A stretch of DNA of 64,000 bases from Frigoriflavimonas asaccharolytica (GTDB taxonomy: Bacteria; Bacteroidota; Bacteroidia; Flavobacteriales; Weeksellaceae). The notes beneath the pieces are model-generated. The model made no database searches, had not been told where the DNA came from, and was given only the letters and a program-made list of their open reading frames with translations. The stretch covers positions 62,001 to 126,000 of the forward strand of contig NZ_JABSNO010000001.1 in NCBI RefSeq assembly GCF_013294015.1, in the 5' to 3' direction. Position numbers and translations under genes: made by a program. This document shows positions 45,264-52,227 of the stretch, one piece after another; the stretch's first letter is position 1, and the number at the start of each line of letters is the position of its first letter.

Positions 45264-46658
45264 ATGTCACATTACGAAGCCCCGATAAGGGAACCTTTAA
45301 TTATTGGTCACAAAACATATCACGATATTACAGAGGATATAGCAAGACCTATAGAAGAAAGAGCAGGAAAACTATGGTGGGTTTCACTATATATTGCTTT
45401 AGCCCTTTTTATCTACGGTTTTGGCTGTATAGCCTACACTATCGGTACAGGTATTGGAGCTTGGGGTCTTAATAGAACCATCAACTGGGGATGGGATATC
45501 ACCAATTTCGTTTGGTGGGTAGGTATTGGTCATGCCGGTACACTAATATCCGCTGTATTATTACTATTCAGACAAAGATGGAGAATGTCTGTAAACAGAT
45601 CTGCAGAAGCAATGACTATTTTTGCAGTTGTGCAAGCAGCTATCTTTCCAGTAATACACATGGGTAGAGTTTGGGTAGGATATTGGGTTTTCCCATTACC
45701 AAACCAATTTGGTTCTTTATGGACGAATTTTAACTCACCACTTCTTTGGGATGTATTTGCAATTTCTACCTACTTTTCCGTATCAACCGTTTTCTGGTTT
45801 ATGGGATTGATTCCAGATTTTGCTATGATCCGAGACAGAGCGAAAACACCGTGGACAAGACAAATCTATACGTTTCTAGCATTTGGCTGGGGAGGAAAGG
45901 CAAAACACTGGCAAAGATTTGAAGAACTTTCTTTAGTTCTTGCAGGCTTGGCTACACCACTTGTATTCTCTGTACATACCACAGTATCTTTTGACTTTGC
46001 TACATCCGTGATAAAAGGATGGCACTCCACGATATATCCACCATACTTTGTAGCTGGAGCTATCTTTTCAGGATTTGCAATGGTTCAAACTTTACTTTTA
46101 ATAGCGAGAAAAGTTTGTCACCTAGAAGAATATATCACAATATACCATATCGAAATTATGAACATCGTAATCATCCTTACAGGTGGTATGGTAACTGTAG
46201 CCTATGGTTGTGAATATTTTATCGCTTGGTATTCTGGAAGTAGATTTGAAGATTTTGCATACCTTACTCCAGGAGCAGCAACAGGACCTTACTGGTGGGC
46301 ATTCTGGGCATTAATTTCTTGTAACTTAATATTCCCAGCTCTATTTTGGTTCAAGAAAGTAAGAACAAACATTATTGCAACATTTATATTGGCATTAATT
46401 ATAAACATAGGAATGTGGTTTGAAAGATTTGATATTATTGTTATCAATCTTTCTAGAGATTATCTACCAAGTTCTTGGACAATGTTTATGCCGTCTATTA
46501 TAGATGTAGGAGTATTTTTAGGAACTATAGGATTCTTTTCTGTATTATTCCTACTATATGCAAGAACATTCCCTGTAATAGCACAGGCAGAATTGAAGAC
46601 TATTTTGAAAATGTCAGGAGAAACTTATAAAGCAAAAGAAGGAGATGAACACCACTAA
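45264..46658 (+). CDS. actC: ActC: NrfD/PsrC-family quinol-binding membrane subunit
   Basis: The 464-residue integral membrane protein has about ten helices and belongs to the NrfD/PsrC family. It begins with a conserved amphipathic N-terminus (EPLIIGHKTYHDITEDI) typical of ActC. Conserved-looking residues include HAGTLISAVLLLFRQRWR and FVWWVGIGHAG, and a His in HTTVSFDFA. In solved alternative complex III structures ActC holds the quinol oxidation site and part of a putative proton path. It lies 21 nt after actB and overlaps actD by 14 nt. Confidence 0.95.
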   Translation: MSHYEAPIREPLIIGHKTYHDITEDIARPIEERAGKLWWVSLYIALALFIYGFGCIAYTIGTGIGAWGLNRTINWGWDITNFVWWVGIGHAGTLISAVLLLFRQRWRMSVNRSAEAMTIFAVVQAAIFPVIHMGRVWVGYWVFPLPNQFGSLWTNFNSPLLWDVFAISTYFSVSTVFWFMGLIPDFAMIRDRAKTPWTRQIYTFLAFGWGGKAKHWQRFEELSLVLAGLATPLVFSVHTTVSFDFATSVIKGWHSTIYPPYFVAGAIFSGFAMVQTLLLIARKVCHLEEYITIYHIEIMNIVIILTGGMVTVAYGCEYFIAWYSGSRFEDFAYLTPGAATGPYWWAFWALISCNLIFPALFWFKKVRTNIIATFILALIINIGMWFERFDIIVINLSRDYLPSSWTMFMPSIIDVGVFLGTIGFFSVLFLLYARTFPVIAQAELKTILKMSGETYKAKEGDEHH

Positions 46659-47166
46659 AATTATATACGGCCTATATGCCGACGATGATGATTTGATGAA
46701 CGGAGTAAAAGCTTTCAATGATAAGGGTATATCCATCAATGAAGTTTATACACCATTCCCAGTGCATGGTCTAGACAAAGCTTTAGGACTAAAGAAAACA
46801 AGAATTTCAGATGCCGCTTTTATTTATGCAGTATATGGAGTCACCGTAGGAAGTTTGATTACTTTTTATACAATGAATCACGATTGGGCACAAAATATTG
46901 GTGGAAAACCATCATTTGATTGGTTTCACAATATGCCAGCTTTCGTAGTTCCAATGTTTGAATTAATGGTATTTTGCGCAGCACACATGATGTCTCTTAC
47001 TTTTTTAGCAAGAAACAAAATGTATCCTGGTGCAGCACCACAAAATCCAGATCCAAGAACTACCGATGATAAATTTATGATGGAATTTATATCTGATGAT
47101 GTAGAAAGCATTAAACAAGTTTTGATAGACACAGGAGTAGAAGAAATAACCGTAAAAGATGCGTAA
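46645..47166 (+). CDS. actD: ActD: DUF3341 membrane subunit of alternative complex III
   Basis: The 173-residue protein matches DUF3341/ActD: a cytoplasmic ferredoxin-like N-terminal part (YGLYADDDDLMNGVKAFND, VYTPFPVHGLDKAL) followed by two membrane helices (about 59-77 and 102-122) and a short charged C-terminus (DDVESIKQVLIDTGVEEITV). It stabilises the complex in known structures. Its start lies inside the end of actC (14-nt overlap), indicating translational coupling, and actE starts one base after its stop. Confidence 0.93.
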   Translation: MNTTKIIYGLYADDDDLMNGVKAFNDKGISINEVYTPFPVHGLDKALGLKKTRISDAAFIYAVYGVTVGSLITFYTMNHDWAQNIGGKPSFDWFHNMPAFVVPMFELMVFCAAHMMSLTFLARNKMYPGAAPQNPDPRTTDDKFMMEFISDDVESIKQVLIDTGVEEITVKDA

Positions 47167-47167
47167 A

Positions 47168-47851
47168 ATGAAGAACAGTATTATAAAACTTACAGCACTC
47201 TTTAGTATTACAGTAATGGTATTAAATTCTTGTGGACCCAATCAAAATCCACCATTAGTTTATTTTCCAGATATGTATTTCCCAGTAGCTTATGATCCTT
47301 TGATGAAAGCTGAAGATGCGTACTCAAAACATGAAAATGAAATTCCAGCATTTGTAAGAAACGATGGTGCTACTGGACTCGGACCTATTGATGGTACCGT
47401 TTCTAGAAACAAAGATGGGGTAATAGAGGATAGTAATGACAAAGCACTTACACCAGATCAATATAATGGTGGCTATGATATTGCAAAAACAATTACAAAT
47501 TCTCCATTAGATCCTAAAAATTTCGCTAAAGATATCGAAAGAGGAAAAGGACTATATGAAAAAACATGTAGTGCTTGCCACGGTGTTGGTGGAAATGGAC
47601 AAGGTCCTATCGTAACAAGCGGTGCCTATTCTGGAGTTCCAGCTTATGCAGATAGAGATATAACCGTAGCATCTGTACACTATGTAATGATGAATGGAAG
47701 AAATGCAATGGGAAGTTATGCAGGAATGTTGAATGCAGGAGATAGATGGAGAGTTGCAATGTATGTAATGAATGCGTTTAAGAAAAATGCAGCAGCTCCA
47801 GCAAATGCAGCAGTAGCAACGACAGCCACAGAAACACCTGCAGTTAAATAA
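47168..47851 (+). CDS. actE: ActE: monohaem cytochrome c lipoprotein subunit
   Basis: With the ATG at 47168 this is 227 residues. A signal peptide with lipobox (VLNSC) marks a lipoprotein. A conserved N-terminal PDMYFPVAYDP region follows, then a cytochrome c domain with CSACH in KTCSACHGVGGNGQGP and a probable axial Met in VMMNGRNAMGSY. The C-terminus is Ala/Thr-rich. It carries electrons to the terminal oxidase or a soluble cytochrome. An alternative start at 47159 overlaps actD by 8 nt; both give the same mature protein. Confidence 0.92.
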   Translation: MKNSIIKLTALFSITVMVLNSCGPNQNPPLVYFPDMYFPVAYDPLMKAEDAYSKHENEIPAFVRNDGATGLGPIDGTVSRNKDGVIEDSNDKALTPDQYNGGYDIAKTITNSPLDPKNFAKDIERGKGLYEKTCSACHGVGGNGQGPIVTSGAYSGVPAYADRDITVASVHYVMMNGRNAMGSYAGMLNAGDRWRVAMYVMNAFKKNAAAPANAAVATTATETPAVK

Positions 47852-47867
47852 TTAAAAAGAAGTAAAA

Positions 47868-49199
47868 ATGTATCAATTTTCATCTAAATTAAAATTAGTT
47901 TCTATAGCACTCCTCGTTGCAGGTTTGGTGCTGTTTGCTGTTGGTTATTTTATGAATCATAGCATAGATGATGTAAAAGTAGAACACATGATGGAAGCAG
48001 TTCATACCGCTGGTCATACATCTGCTCTTAATTCTAGCGAACTAGTTGGTCCACAAGATCACGAAGCTCACTTGGAACATGCAAAAATGCAAATTCACAA
48101 CCAACCATTAGCTGCAATTCACTTGGTAGCAGTTTTCTTCTTCGGATTAAGCTGTGCTGCAATGTTTTTTTACAGTATACAACACGTTTCACACGCTGGT
48201 TGGTCTATTATTATCACTAGAGTAATGGAAGCTATAAGTGGATATATTCCTTATGGTGGTGCCATATTAATTATCTTAATGATTCTTAATGCTACGCACA
48301 ACGGACATTTATTTCACTGGATGGATCCTGCGTTAACAGATCCAAATTCAGATCATTTTGATGTGATTTTATTTGAAAAAAAGAAATTCTTAAACATACC
48401 ATTCTACGCTTTTAGAACAATTTTTTATGTAGTCGGAGCATCTTTCCTTACCTGGAAATTGAGAAGACAATCAAAATTAGTAGATCAAACTAAAAGCCTA
48501 AGAGATTATCAAATACTATACAGATGGGCAGTTGGATATTTAGTATTTTTCGGTTTCTGTTCTGCAGCTTGGGCATGGGATTGGTTGATGTCTATAGATC
48601 CTCACTGGTATTCTACTATGTATATTTGGTATTCTATGGTAAGTTGTCTTACAAGTGGAGTTGCTGCAATTATCTTGATAAGTGTTTATCTTAAAAAGAA
48701 AGGATTCTTACCACAATTTAATGATAATCATTTACATGATTTAGGAGTTTTCCTTTTTGCAACAAGTATGCTTTGGACATACACTTGGTTCGCGCAATTC
48801 ATGTTGTATTGGTATGCAAATGTACCTGAAGAAGTAAACTATTTCATGGCAAGATTTGAACATTATTACTGGGTTTATCTTCCAATGTTAATTCCAAATT
48901 TCTTCTTACCATTATTGGTATTGGTTAGTTCTAGCATCAAAAGAAATTACAAAGTGGTTTGTACTATCGCGGTAATTGTAATTCTAGGTCACATCTTAGA
49001 TTACTTCAATATGGTAATGCCGGGAACAGTTGGAGCATACTGGAAAACACCAGAAGTACTAATTTTAACAATAGGTTCTGTTCTTTTCTTCATAGGATTA
49101 TTTACATTCATCGTGATGACAACATTATCTAAATTGAAATTAATTCCAACAGGAAATCCATACTTGAAGGAATCAGAGATATATGAATATCCTTTCTAA
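47868..49199 (+). CDS. actF: ActF: quinol:cytochrome c oxidoreductase membrane subunit
   Basis: The 443-residue membrane protein has about ten helices and is a diverged relative of ActC. An N-terminal His-rich periplasmic loop (HMMEAVHTAGHTS, HDEAHLEHA-like) follows the first helix. Helices with HWMDP, WAWDWLMSIDPHWYSTMY and MFEHYYWVYLPML-like stretches match ActF. In structures it packs against ActC and has a proposed proton half-channel. It is the last gene of the operon and is followed by a strong terminator, so no cytochrome oxidase genes are co-transcribed. Confidence 0.94.
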   Translation: MYQFSSKLKLVSIALLVAGLVLFAVGYFMNHSIDDVKVEHMMEAVHTAGHTSALNSSELVGPQDHEAHLEHAKMQIHNQPLAAIHLVAVFFFGLSCAAMFFYSIQHVSHAGWSIIITRVMEAISGYIPYGGAILIILMILNATHNGHLFHWMDPALTDPNSDHFDVILFEKKKFLNIPFYAFRTIFYVVGASFLTWKLRRQSKLVDQTKSLRDYQILYRWAVGYLVFFGFCSAAWAWDWLMSIDPHWYSTMYIWYSMVSCLTSGVAAIILISVYLKKKGFLPQFNDNHLHDLGVFLFATSMLWTYTWFAQFMLYWYANVPEEVNYFMARFEHYYWVYLPMLIPNFFLPLLVLVSSSIKRNYKVVCTIAVIVILGHILDYFNMVMPGTVGAYWKTPEVLILTIGSVLFFIGLFTFIVMTTLSKLKLIPTGNPYLKESEIYEYPF

Positions 49200-50648: not shown

Positions 50649-51194
50649 TTACCATGCAGAAGCTAAATAAGGGAATGAAGTCAAAAATGGTTTATCATTT
50701 GAGTTTACATTATCTTTCGTTAAGCCAGGATTTGAAGTACCTCCTGGTCCACCAAAAATTAGTAATAATTCTGTATCAATTACATCATCAGCAAGTGCAC
50801 GACCAGTTAAAACATTGGTACCATCAAAAAATGTAGTTGGTGCAACTTTTGAAACTCCTAATACATCTGTAGCTAATAAACCTGTGAACTGCGCTGCAGT
50901 TTGGCCAAGAGCATTTGTAGTATAGGCAGGGTTCAAATTCATCAATCTAGTTTGAAAAACTGACTGATATGCTGCTCCCATTGCAGATGGAATGGTCGTA
51001 TTAAAAGTATTTTTAGGAGCTCCAGATGCTATGAATACTGTATTTATTGCAGGGCGACCCATTTGATCAGCTTGTACAAATGTACCAGAAAAATCAGTTT
51101 GCTGTGATATGAATTCATCATTATCATTACAACTGGTAAAAACTGCCGTTGCCATAAGTGATAATGCCAAGATCTTGAATATATTATTTTTCAT
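50649..51194 (-). CDS. lipoprotein carrying the C-terminal half of a DUF4331 domain
   Basis: Starting at the ATG at 51194, 181 residues. A lipobox (FTSC, C22) marks a lipoprotein. The body matches the C-terminal part of DUF4331 as I know it: QMGRPAINTVFI (44-55), LLATDVLGVSK, TGRALADDVIDTELLLIFGG, and an FPYLASAW end. The N-terminal half of the domain is on the preceding gene, a separate exported protein. The start at 51194 is chosen because it begins a normal signal peptide; the frame extends 20 codons upstream, overlapping the previous gene. Function of DUF4331 is unknown. Confidence 0.8.
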   Translation of the reverse strand: MKNNIFKILALSLMATAVFTSCNDNDEFISQQTDFSGTFVQADQMGRPAINTVFIASGAPKNTFNTTIPSAMGAAYQSVFQTRLMNLNPAYTTNALGQTAAQFTGLLATDVLGVSKVAPTTFFDGTNVLTGRALADDVIDTELLLIFGGPGGTSNPGLTKDNVNSNDKPFLTSFPYLASAW

Positions 51195-51222
51195 AAATTT
51201 AGATTTAAAGTGTATGTGTAGA

Positions 51223-51876
51223 TTATTGTTTTTGTTTAGTTTCTGCCCAAACATTAATAGTTGAAGAAGATCCCAACAAAGATTTTGGTACTTCTATTAC
51301 AGTTGCTAAAACATTTGTACCTGCAAAAGTATCAGTTCCAGGATTGTTGAAACTCGTAGCAGAACCACCTAGAATTGCAGTAAACCTTGTGAAATCAAAG
51401 AAAAACGGATCGTCTCTTGGTCCAGCGAAAAATTTCATTCCATTTGTTGCTGTTGCAATACTTGGCGCAGCACCATAAGCAGAAATATCTACACTACCAG
51501 AAGGAGATCCAGTTTTAATAGTACTAGATGTTCCAGTAGTTCCAGGAGCAACTGGTCCGAAGAAATACATTTTATTCCCTTTTCTAATAGCTTGGATAAC
51601 AAGATCTTCTACATTATCACCGTTGTTATCAATGTTTATTTCAGTTAAAACATTTTCACTAAAGCTAGCAGAAGCAGAAGCACTTGGAGAAAGTAACCCT
51701 TGCTCATTTACTACAAATACCAAATTGTTGGAATCTGCTCCTTGAAAAGCATAGACATCTGTGATATCATTTGCACTTCCCGTTACAGCTGGAGCATCGA
51801 TGTGATCTGCAGACATAAAGATCAGGCCCGAAATCGCTACTAGCGATAAACCTAAAATAATTTTTGTTTTTTTCAT
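51223..51876 (-). CDS. exported protein carrying the N-terminal half of a DUF4331 domain
   Basis: The 217-residue protein has a signal peptide (MKKTKIILGLSLVAISGLIF) and the DUF4331 opening: DHIDAPAVTGSANDITDVYAF (24-44, one residue group), the LVFVVNEQG strand, and AGPRDDPFFFDFTRF. It stops after INVWAETKQKQ, where single-chain DUF4331 proteins would continue to the QxDRMGRPAxN segment found in the next gene. It has no lipobox, unlike its partner. The two genes are 28 nt apart on the minus strand and are probably one operon. Confidence 0.8.
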   Translation of the reverse strand: MKKTKIILGLSLVAISGLIFMSADHIDAPAVTGSANDITDVYAFQGADSNNLVFVVNEQGLLSPSASASASFSENVLTEINIDNNGDNVEDLVIQAIRKGNKMYFFGPVAPGTTGTSSTIKTGSPSGSVDISAYGAAPSIATATNGMKFFAGPRDDPFFFDFTRFTAILGGSATSFNNPGTDTFAGTNVLATVIEVPKSLLGSSSTINVWAETKQKQ

Positions 51877-52227
51877 GTTTAAAAATTTATTGTTGTTAAT
51901 ATTAGCATTTACGAATACATCTTTCCATTGGTTTTATTAATTGTGATTAAAGTTTCAGAAGTTTAATCTTTATTAAAATTATCCCCAATAAAAAATATTT
52001 TTTACCTATACAATTTGCAATATAATAAATTAATTATATTACGATATTCTACTTATTAGTTGTTAAATTAAGCTATTCAAATTTTTTAAGAAATATTTTT
52101 AAACTTTTTCTAAAATTATAACTCTTTCTAGATTGGCAAAAATTTCTCAATTTCTATTCCTAAACATTATGCTAAATTAAAAATCCTTGGAAATAAAAAT
52201 AAAATCTAGAATATGTAATGGATTTAG
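51877..52227. other. intergenic region with no gene, upstream of two divergent units
   Basis: Very AT-rich sequence between the DUF4331 pair and the lipoprotein gene. I see no reading frame with coding character, no RNA gene and no clear repeat. It must hold the promoter of the DUF4331 pair, but I find no convincing TAnnTTTG on the minus strand. Confidence 0.45.

Follow-up and report, generated by a model that had tools for sequence, protein, structure and literature searches.

Two exported halves of a DUF4331 domain

The window is the whole stretch of DNA that was analysed, 64,000 nucleotides from Frigoriflavimonas asaccharolytica. Two adjacent genes on its minus strand, here termed A and B, were studied together with the elements around them:

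51910..51934, minus strand: AAACC-N16-CGTA element in the style of an extracytoplasmic function (ECF) sigma promoter, starting 58 nt upstream of A
51223..51876, minus strand: ORF A, 217 aa, an exported protein with the N-terminal half of DUF4331 (Pfam PF14224 positions 2-242)
51808..51876, minus strand: type I signal peptide of A, ending at SA before the conserved DHIDAP (inferred cleavage site)
51195..51222, minus strand: intergenic gap between A and B, 28 nt
50649..51194, minus strand: ORF B, 181 aa, a separate lipoprotein with the C-terminal half of DUF4331 (PF14224 positions 242-420)
51129..51194, minus strand: lipoprotein signal peptide of B with lipobox FTSC, its Cys22 invariant in the alignment
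51111..51128, minus strand: Asn/Asp-rich stretch NDNDEF right after the lipidated Cys of B, resembling the Bacteroidota lipoprotein export signal

An earlier sequence-only reading of this DNA had proposed both open reading frames, and both are present at the positions it gave. They lie in different reading frames of one strand and likely form a two-gene transcript. The start at 51254 that a mechanical ORF list assigns to B would overlap A, and the start at 51194 yields the lipoprotein signal.

The same reading had suggested that one DUF4331 domain is divided over two proteins, and the profile searches bear this out. In the Pfam search, A matched PF14224 with 89.8 bits (E 3e-25) and B with 51.7 bits (E 1.1e-13), each above the curated cut-off of 27 bits, which applies to the whole-protein score; no family besides DUF4331 was found for either chain. 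In a six-frame search of the own genome, the match of A spanned profile positions 2-76 and 133-242 and that of B positions 242-420, with a profile length of 421, so the halves are adjacent and non-overlapping. Neither chain covers positions 1-421 in one polypeptide, as single-chain relatives do, and B matches no unrelated family. A ends 8 residues past the conserved Trp of its last strand (VWAETKQKQ). All of the DUF4331 motifs quoted in the sequence-only reading were found, and a joint alignment with 21 single-chain proteins shows the family motifs of A and B in the order in which one-chain homologues carry them.

Both chains are members of DUF4331, and the novelty lies in their obligate two-chain, lipid-anchored form and in the regulon proposed for it. 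Single-chain DUF4331 proteins (PF14224) share with the pair the profile, the motif order [SD]H-x-[ED]-A-P, D-x-TD-x-Y-x-F, DDPFF-x-D, GR-x-L-x-DDV and FPY, the TPR neighbour and, in part, the HupE, TonB and sigma neighbours. They differ in being a single polypeptide, about 475-580 aa long when any tail is left aside, whereas the split form consists of 217 + 181 aa; identity between the two forms is about 30%, and a long branch separates them. Most single chains of Bacteroidota have a C-terminal type IX secretion tail, about 120 residues long, whereas the split form carries a lipid on its C-terminal half. Loci L103, L105 and L108 contain tandem copies of the single chain, in all three with a first copy that has no type IX tail; the second copy has it in L105 and L108, and in L103 lies within a 1526-aa ORF. 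NCBIfam assigns no function-based name to A, to B or to the single chain, and among viruses no DUF4331 copy was confirmed. The literature search, with most subscription journals outside its coverage, returned no paper naming DUF4331 or PF14224, and the split form is apparently undescribed.

Each half has its own export signal. The signal region of A reads MKKTKIILGLSLVAISGLIFMSA-DHIDAP, and the signal peptide is kept in 121 homologues. That of B reads MKNNIFKILALSLMATAVFTS-C-NDNDEF, with the lipobox AVFTS-C. The separate lipoprotein signal, another claim of the sequence-only reading, is supported: every one of 30 aligned B proteins has the lipobox Cys, and a pattern match found the lipobox in nearly all loci of the named-genome scan described below. 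The residues after the Cys are rich in Asp and Asn in nearly all of these loci as well (CNDNDE in the window; CDNDDS, CNDDDN and similar in relatives). In one group of Flavobacteriaceae, the lipobox of B is separated from the DUF4331 part by a Cys-rich insert, CxDGxxNGxExGxDCGGxxCxPC (L067, L074, L076, L081, L088, L090, L092 and L093).

The conserved N-terminus of the domain reads SSHREAP in 30/30 single chains and DH-x-[DE]-[AT]-P in each of the 121 A proteins of the split form that were examined, and in every form it directly follows the inferred signal peptidase site.

The published lipoprotein export signals are SDDFE in Flavobacterium johnsoniae and SDDDD in Bacteroides fragilis (PMC5080379), and the likeness of the B signal to them was judged by eye and is unscored. 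From the Asp/Asn-rich residues after its Cys, B is probably located at the outer surface. Surface lipoproteins with this signal, such as SusD-like proteins (PMC5080379), share with B the lipobox followed by polar and then acidic residues, and in many relatives of the pair also a gene near a TonB-dependent receptor. They differ in that B is half a domain, with the other half, A, free of lipid; no SusD match was found for B.

Alternatively, A and B may assemble facing the periplasm, with the lipid of B in the inner leaflet of the outer membrane. This arrangement is a serious though somewhat doubtful possibility. A has a type I signal only and no known path across the outer membrane, and the surface export signal of B was assessed by resemblance only. 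Against this, the acidic and Asn residues straight after the Cys in nearly all homologues fit the published export signals, and single-chain relatives bear a type IX (T9SS) sorting tail, so in them the domain acts outside the cell. With the surface as the probable destination, the question arises how A, with its type I signal only, would accompany the lipoprotein B there.

Conservation and origin of the split

The sequence-only reading had put forward a survey of flavobacterial genomes for the same adjacent pair, and the pair was found throughout Flavobacteriaceae and scattered in other Bacteroidota. Whole-genome searches with family models identified 51 split-form genomes, 41 from the order sample (window genome included) and 10 from the phylum sample, and both halves were detected in 51/51. 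A full-length single chain was found in 19 genomes of the order and phylum samples. No genome of these samples had a lone half, and none had the split and single-chain forms together. Loci with about 7 kb of flank on each side were fetched for 48 split and 12 single-chain cases, and A precedes B on the same strand in 48/48 fetched split loci.

A scan of named genomes started from 521 relatives of B, and 80 loci were kept. The hosts are mostly Flavobacterium, with Polaribacter and Tenacibaculum, and some metagenome-assembled genomes of Saprospiraceae, Chitinophagaceae and Spirosomataceae. Each of the 79 complete loci has A ahead of B on the same strand (the 80th is cut by its end), none of these 79 contains an A-B fusion, and the gap measures 11-77 nt in most named loci. 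Because the named and genome-sample sets share some members, the two counts should not be treated as independent. Among the hosts in named loci L119-L198 there are many Flavobacterium species from glaciers, polar regions and other cold habitats, a raw tally uncorrected for which species have been sequenced.

The ends of the chains are constant as well. A stops 7-9 residues past the conserved Trp in 127 homologues, and practically every B ends 8-9 residues from FPY, which means a fixed cut point. These data bear on the reading of the locus as a pseudogene or an assembly error, that is, a single DUF4331 gene broken by a frameshift. The window by itself could give that impression, with halves 28 nt apart and in different frames. 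It is contradicted by the recurrence of this layout across 51 genomes and in 79 named loci (sets partly overlapping), by the lipoprotein signal that B has of its own and by the fixed ends. The conservation of the pair rules this reading out, and the probability left to it is practically nil.

A tree built from 68 split pairs and 15 single chains separates the two forms at a single branch, with a support of 100 and all split rows on one side of it. When nine single chains from Proteobacteria and Actinobacteria were added, a branch (100/100) again divided the split rows from all single chains, which then represented three phyla. Both trees are unrooted, and the tree alone is compatible with fusion as well as fission. 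In the samples searched, the single chain occurs in other Bacteroidota, Proteobacteria and Actinobacteria, and the split form occurs in Bacteroidota only. Because of this distribution, a single ancient gene fission is the likeliest origin of the split form, as far as can be judged from sequence comparison. The window pair itself lies inside a Flavobacterium clade (support 99), and in the window genome's own family the domain is present in 1/148 genomes. Horizontal acquisition is the simplest reading for the window pair; losses elsewhere are the alternative.

Probable assembly of the two chains

In the alignment with single chains, A ends after the strand motif (I)GVWASASR or INVWAETK, and B resumes with WVQVSRLGMPLTNE or TYVQxDQMxRPAINTVF. 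One-chain homologues align across the A-B junction, and the cut is placed in a loop between two predicted strands.

The sequence-only reading had called for a structure prediction of the two-chain complex, and this was approximated by modelling the natural in-frame A-B read-through of locus L057, with its TAA read as Gly. The model reached a mean pLDDT of 76.6 and a pTM of 0.79, with the halves mostly above a pLDDT of 70, values to be read knowing that the linker could force the halves together. The junction, including the B signal peptide (219-259), is disordered. Predicted strands lie at 205-215 and, by the authors' mapping, in TYVQLDQM of B at 269-276; past this first strand the C-terminal half is mostly helical. 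The single-chain model (pLDDT 63.6, pTM 0.75) has a strand order similar to that of L057. The read-through model is thus compatible with one folded unit.

Comparison of the read-through model with single Ig-like domains gave matches that begin near residue 33 in A and reach to 347-361 in B, and the structural matches of the single-chain model likewise span the junction. The best Z scores were 8.1 for the pair and 8.4 for the single chain (against CBM74), within the noise range of the tool. Values of up to 8.4 are in the range of a common arrangement and are therefore only a hint of one sandwich built from both halves. Neither the pair nor the single chain had a significant match in Foldseek, and sequence search found no solved relative. 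The Ig-like and CBM74 matches are too weak for a fold assignment.

Pairwise distances between loci provide a second line of evidence. Over 47 loci, the A and B distances show a correlation of r=0.90, and the partial r is 0.89 when the TPR gene from their operon is removed; the correlation is 0.67 between A and the TPR gene and 0.48 between B and the TPR gene. With the TPR, sigma and anti-sigma genes removed (33 loci), the partial r remains 0.89, but it drops to 0.58 for the smaller set of 25 loci in which the TonB receptor is present too. Locus pairs are not independent, and for this reason no p-value is given. This pattern fits mutual constraint between A and B beyond that of their neighbours. 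The reassembly outside the cytoplasm that the sequence-only reading had supposed is favoured by the strict co-occurrence and tight co-evolution of the two chains.

The same data can be asked whether DUF4331 comprises two independent domains, kept as co-regulated proteins with no common fold required; for example, A and B might each bind the TPR protein or the TonB receptor separately. It would accord with such independence that A and B each clear the Pfam cut-off unaided and that the C-terminal half is mainly helical after its first strand. The extra Cys-rich inserts that occur in B also indicate that it tolerates the state of a separate module. Nevertheless, A and B are never apart in the sampled genomes and loci, their lockstep exceeds that with the adjacent TPR gene, the linked pair reaches a pTM of 0.79, and the cut falls between two consecutive strands and not in a long linker. 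Two independent domains are therefore regarded as rather unlikely.

It is considered fairly probable that the pair is a naturally split DUF4331 domain, which arose by one fission and whose chains are exported separately and rebuild the domain outside the cytoplasm by A-B strand complementation. In this model, an ancestral one-chain exported domain would have been cut once, in a progenitor of the Bacteroidota with the split form and at the loop that joins the VWAETK... and TYVQxDQMxRP... strands, and the C-terminal half would have acquired its own lipoprotein signal. A and B would be made from one transcript and exported separately by Sec; B would be lipidated and then, probably, moved to the outer surface. 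A would dock on B by strand complementation, and a sandwich-like domain would thereby be rebuilt from two chains, with a lipid anchor in mid-domain. This anchor may take over the role of the type IX tail of single-chain Bacteroidota relatives. The split would also leave the conserved mature N-terminus (DHIDAP or SSHREAP) free. This N-terminus directly follows the signal peptidase site, so a lipid placed there would bury it; the cut in the loop would supply a new N-terminus for the lipid.

In the donor-strand complementation of chaperone-usher pili, a beta fold is completed by a strand from another chain. A strand-completed beta fold is the likeness we infer for A and B. The difference is that A and B would be a fixed heterodimer from the fission of one domain, whereas pili polymerise. 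The conserved split into a soluble exported chain and a lipoprotein offers a clean, testable case of fission and of extracytoplasmic assembly.

Promoter-like element, gene neighbourhood and possible role

The single ancient origin, the promoter-like element and the loss of the operon neighbours in the window genome had all gone unseen in the sequence-only reading. The element AAACC-N16-CGTA is present upstream of A in 31/48 split loci and 67/74 named loci, where shuffles expect at most 0.02, and its start is mostly 50-80 nt before the start codon of A. The longer form AAACC-N16-CGTAAAT has three sites in the window genome: before the pair, directly before the HupE/UreJ gene and inside the sigma gene. 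A weaker version, AACC-N16-CGTAA, lies about 90 nt before the likely start of the TonB receptor gene of this genome. In the window genome the AAACC-N16-CGTA pattern is not enriched over a reversed control, so only the positions of the hits are informative. Scans of the pair region for sigma-70 promoters and terminators stayed at shuffle level. Expression of the pair is probably driven by an ECF sigma factor.

In 22 loci (L055, L057, L077 and others) the pattern also occurs within the coding region of the ECF sigma gene, about 224 nt before the start of the anti-sigma gene; the instance in the window genome lies at contig 8:55701-55729. Because of its place inside the sigma coding region, this hit was discounted as a normal promoter of the anti-sigma gene. 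An internal promoter and a coding coincidence are both conceivable explanations for the pattern at this place.

A TPR lipoprotein gene stands beside the split pair in 47/48 loci, a TonB-dependent receptor with a CarboxypepD_reg-like domain in 25/48, and an ECF sigma gene with an RskA-like anti-sigma gene is nearby in about 35/48. In the window genome these usual neighbours are absent beside the pair and lie on other contigs: the TPR and HupE/UreJ genes together on contig 15, the TonB receptor (55-58% identical) on contig 2, and one RskA-type anti-sigma gene with its sigma gene on contig 8. The positions of the element suggest that these dispersed module genes may still form one regulon. The window genome's homologue of the TonB receptor (L117 7301-9601; G000 contig 2, 103303-105600) adjoins a CopA-like multicopper oxidase (L117 4844-7201).

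Single-chain relatives in Bacteroidota have the TPR gene in most cases and the HupE/UreJ gene in some. Outside Bacteroidota, a DUF4331 gene followed by TPR and/or HupE/UreJ genes was found in Pseudoalteromonas, Marinobacter, Lichenicola, a Comamonad, Streptomyces and Miltoncostaea. The Pseudoalteromonas locus has sigma and anti-sigma genes too, and the Streptomyces locus a gene annotated as a nickel transporter. In the Rhodobacterales examples, the DUF4331 gene adjoins type II secretion genes instead.

The recurrence of DUF4331, TPR and HupE genes across three phyla weakly suggests a metal-related role. A metal-related binding function for DUF4331 is accordingly our guess, made because DUF4331, the TPR protein and the HupE/UreJ-type permease recur together across phyla. 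Mature ends of the SSH- or ADH- type would be amino-terminal Cu/Ni (ATCUN-type) sites. One may speculate that such ends, if left by signal peptidase, would fit the Ni/Co link of HupE/UreJ. Known HupE/UreJ members transport Ni/Co and are tied to hydrogenase, urease or B12 (PMC7689651). The permease modules (PF13795/PF04955) are connected to DUF4331 by the presence of HupE/UreJ in the DUF4331 operon in Proteobacteria and, in the window genome, by the promoter element common to the pair and the permease gene. They differ in that hydrogenase, urease and B12 genes were not noticed in DUF4331 loci. Literature on HupE/UreJ combined with sigma factors provided background only.

A more far-reaching proposal is that the fission yields both the mid-domain lipid and a free N-terminal Cu/Ni site, and that the complex would act as the outer-membrane component of a so far unrecognised metal module, DUF4331-TPR-HupE, which is under ECF control and shared by three phyla. 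As a whole this proposal is judged distinctly improbable. Nonetheless, the DUF4331-TPR-HupE context and the common promoter element turn a family without a named function into a testable regulon.

Elsewhere in the window, at 45264-49199, four consecutive plus-strand genes appear to belong to an alternative complex III or cytochrome operon, judged from their translations only. They include an NrfD-like membrane protein and a cytochrome c lipoprotein.
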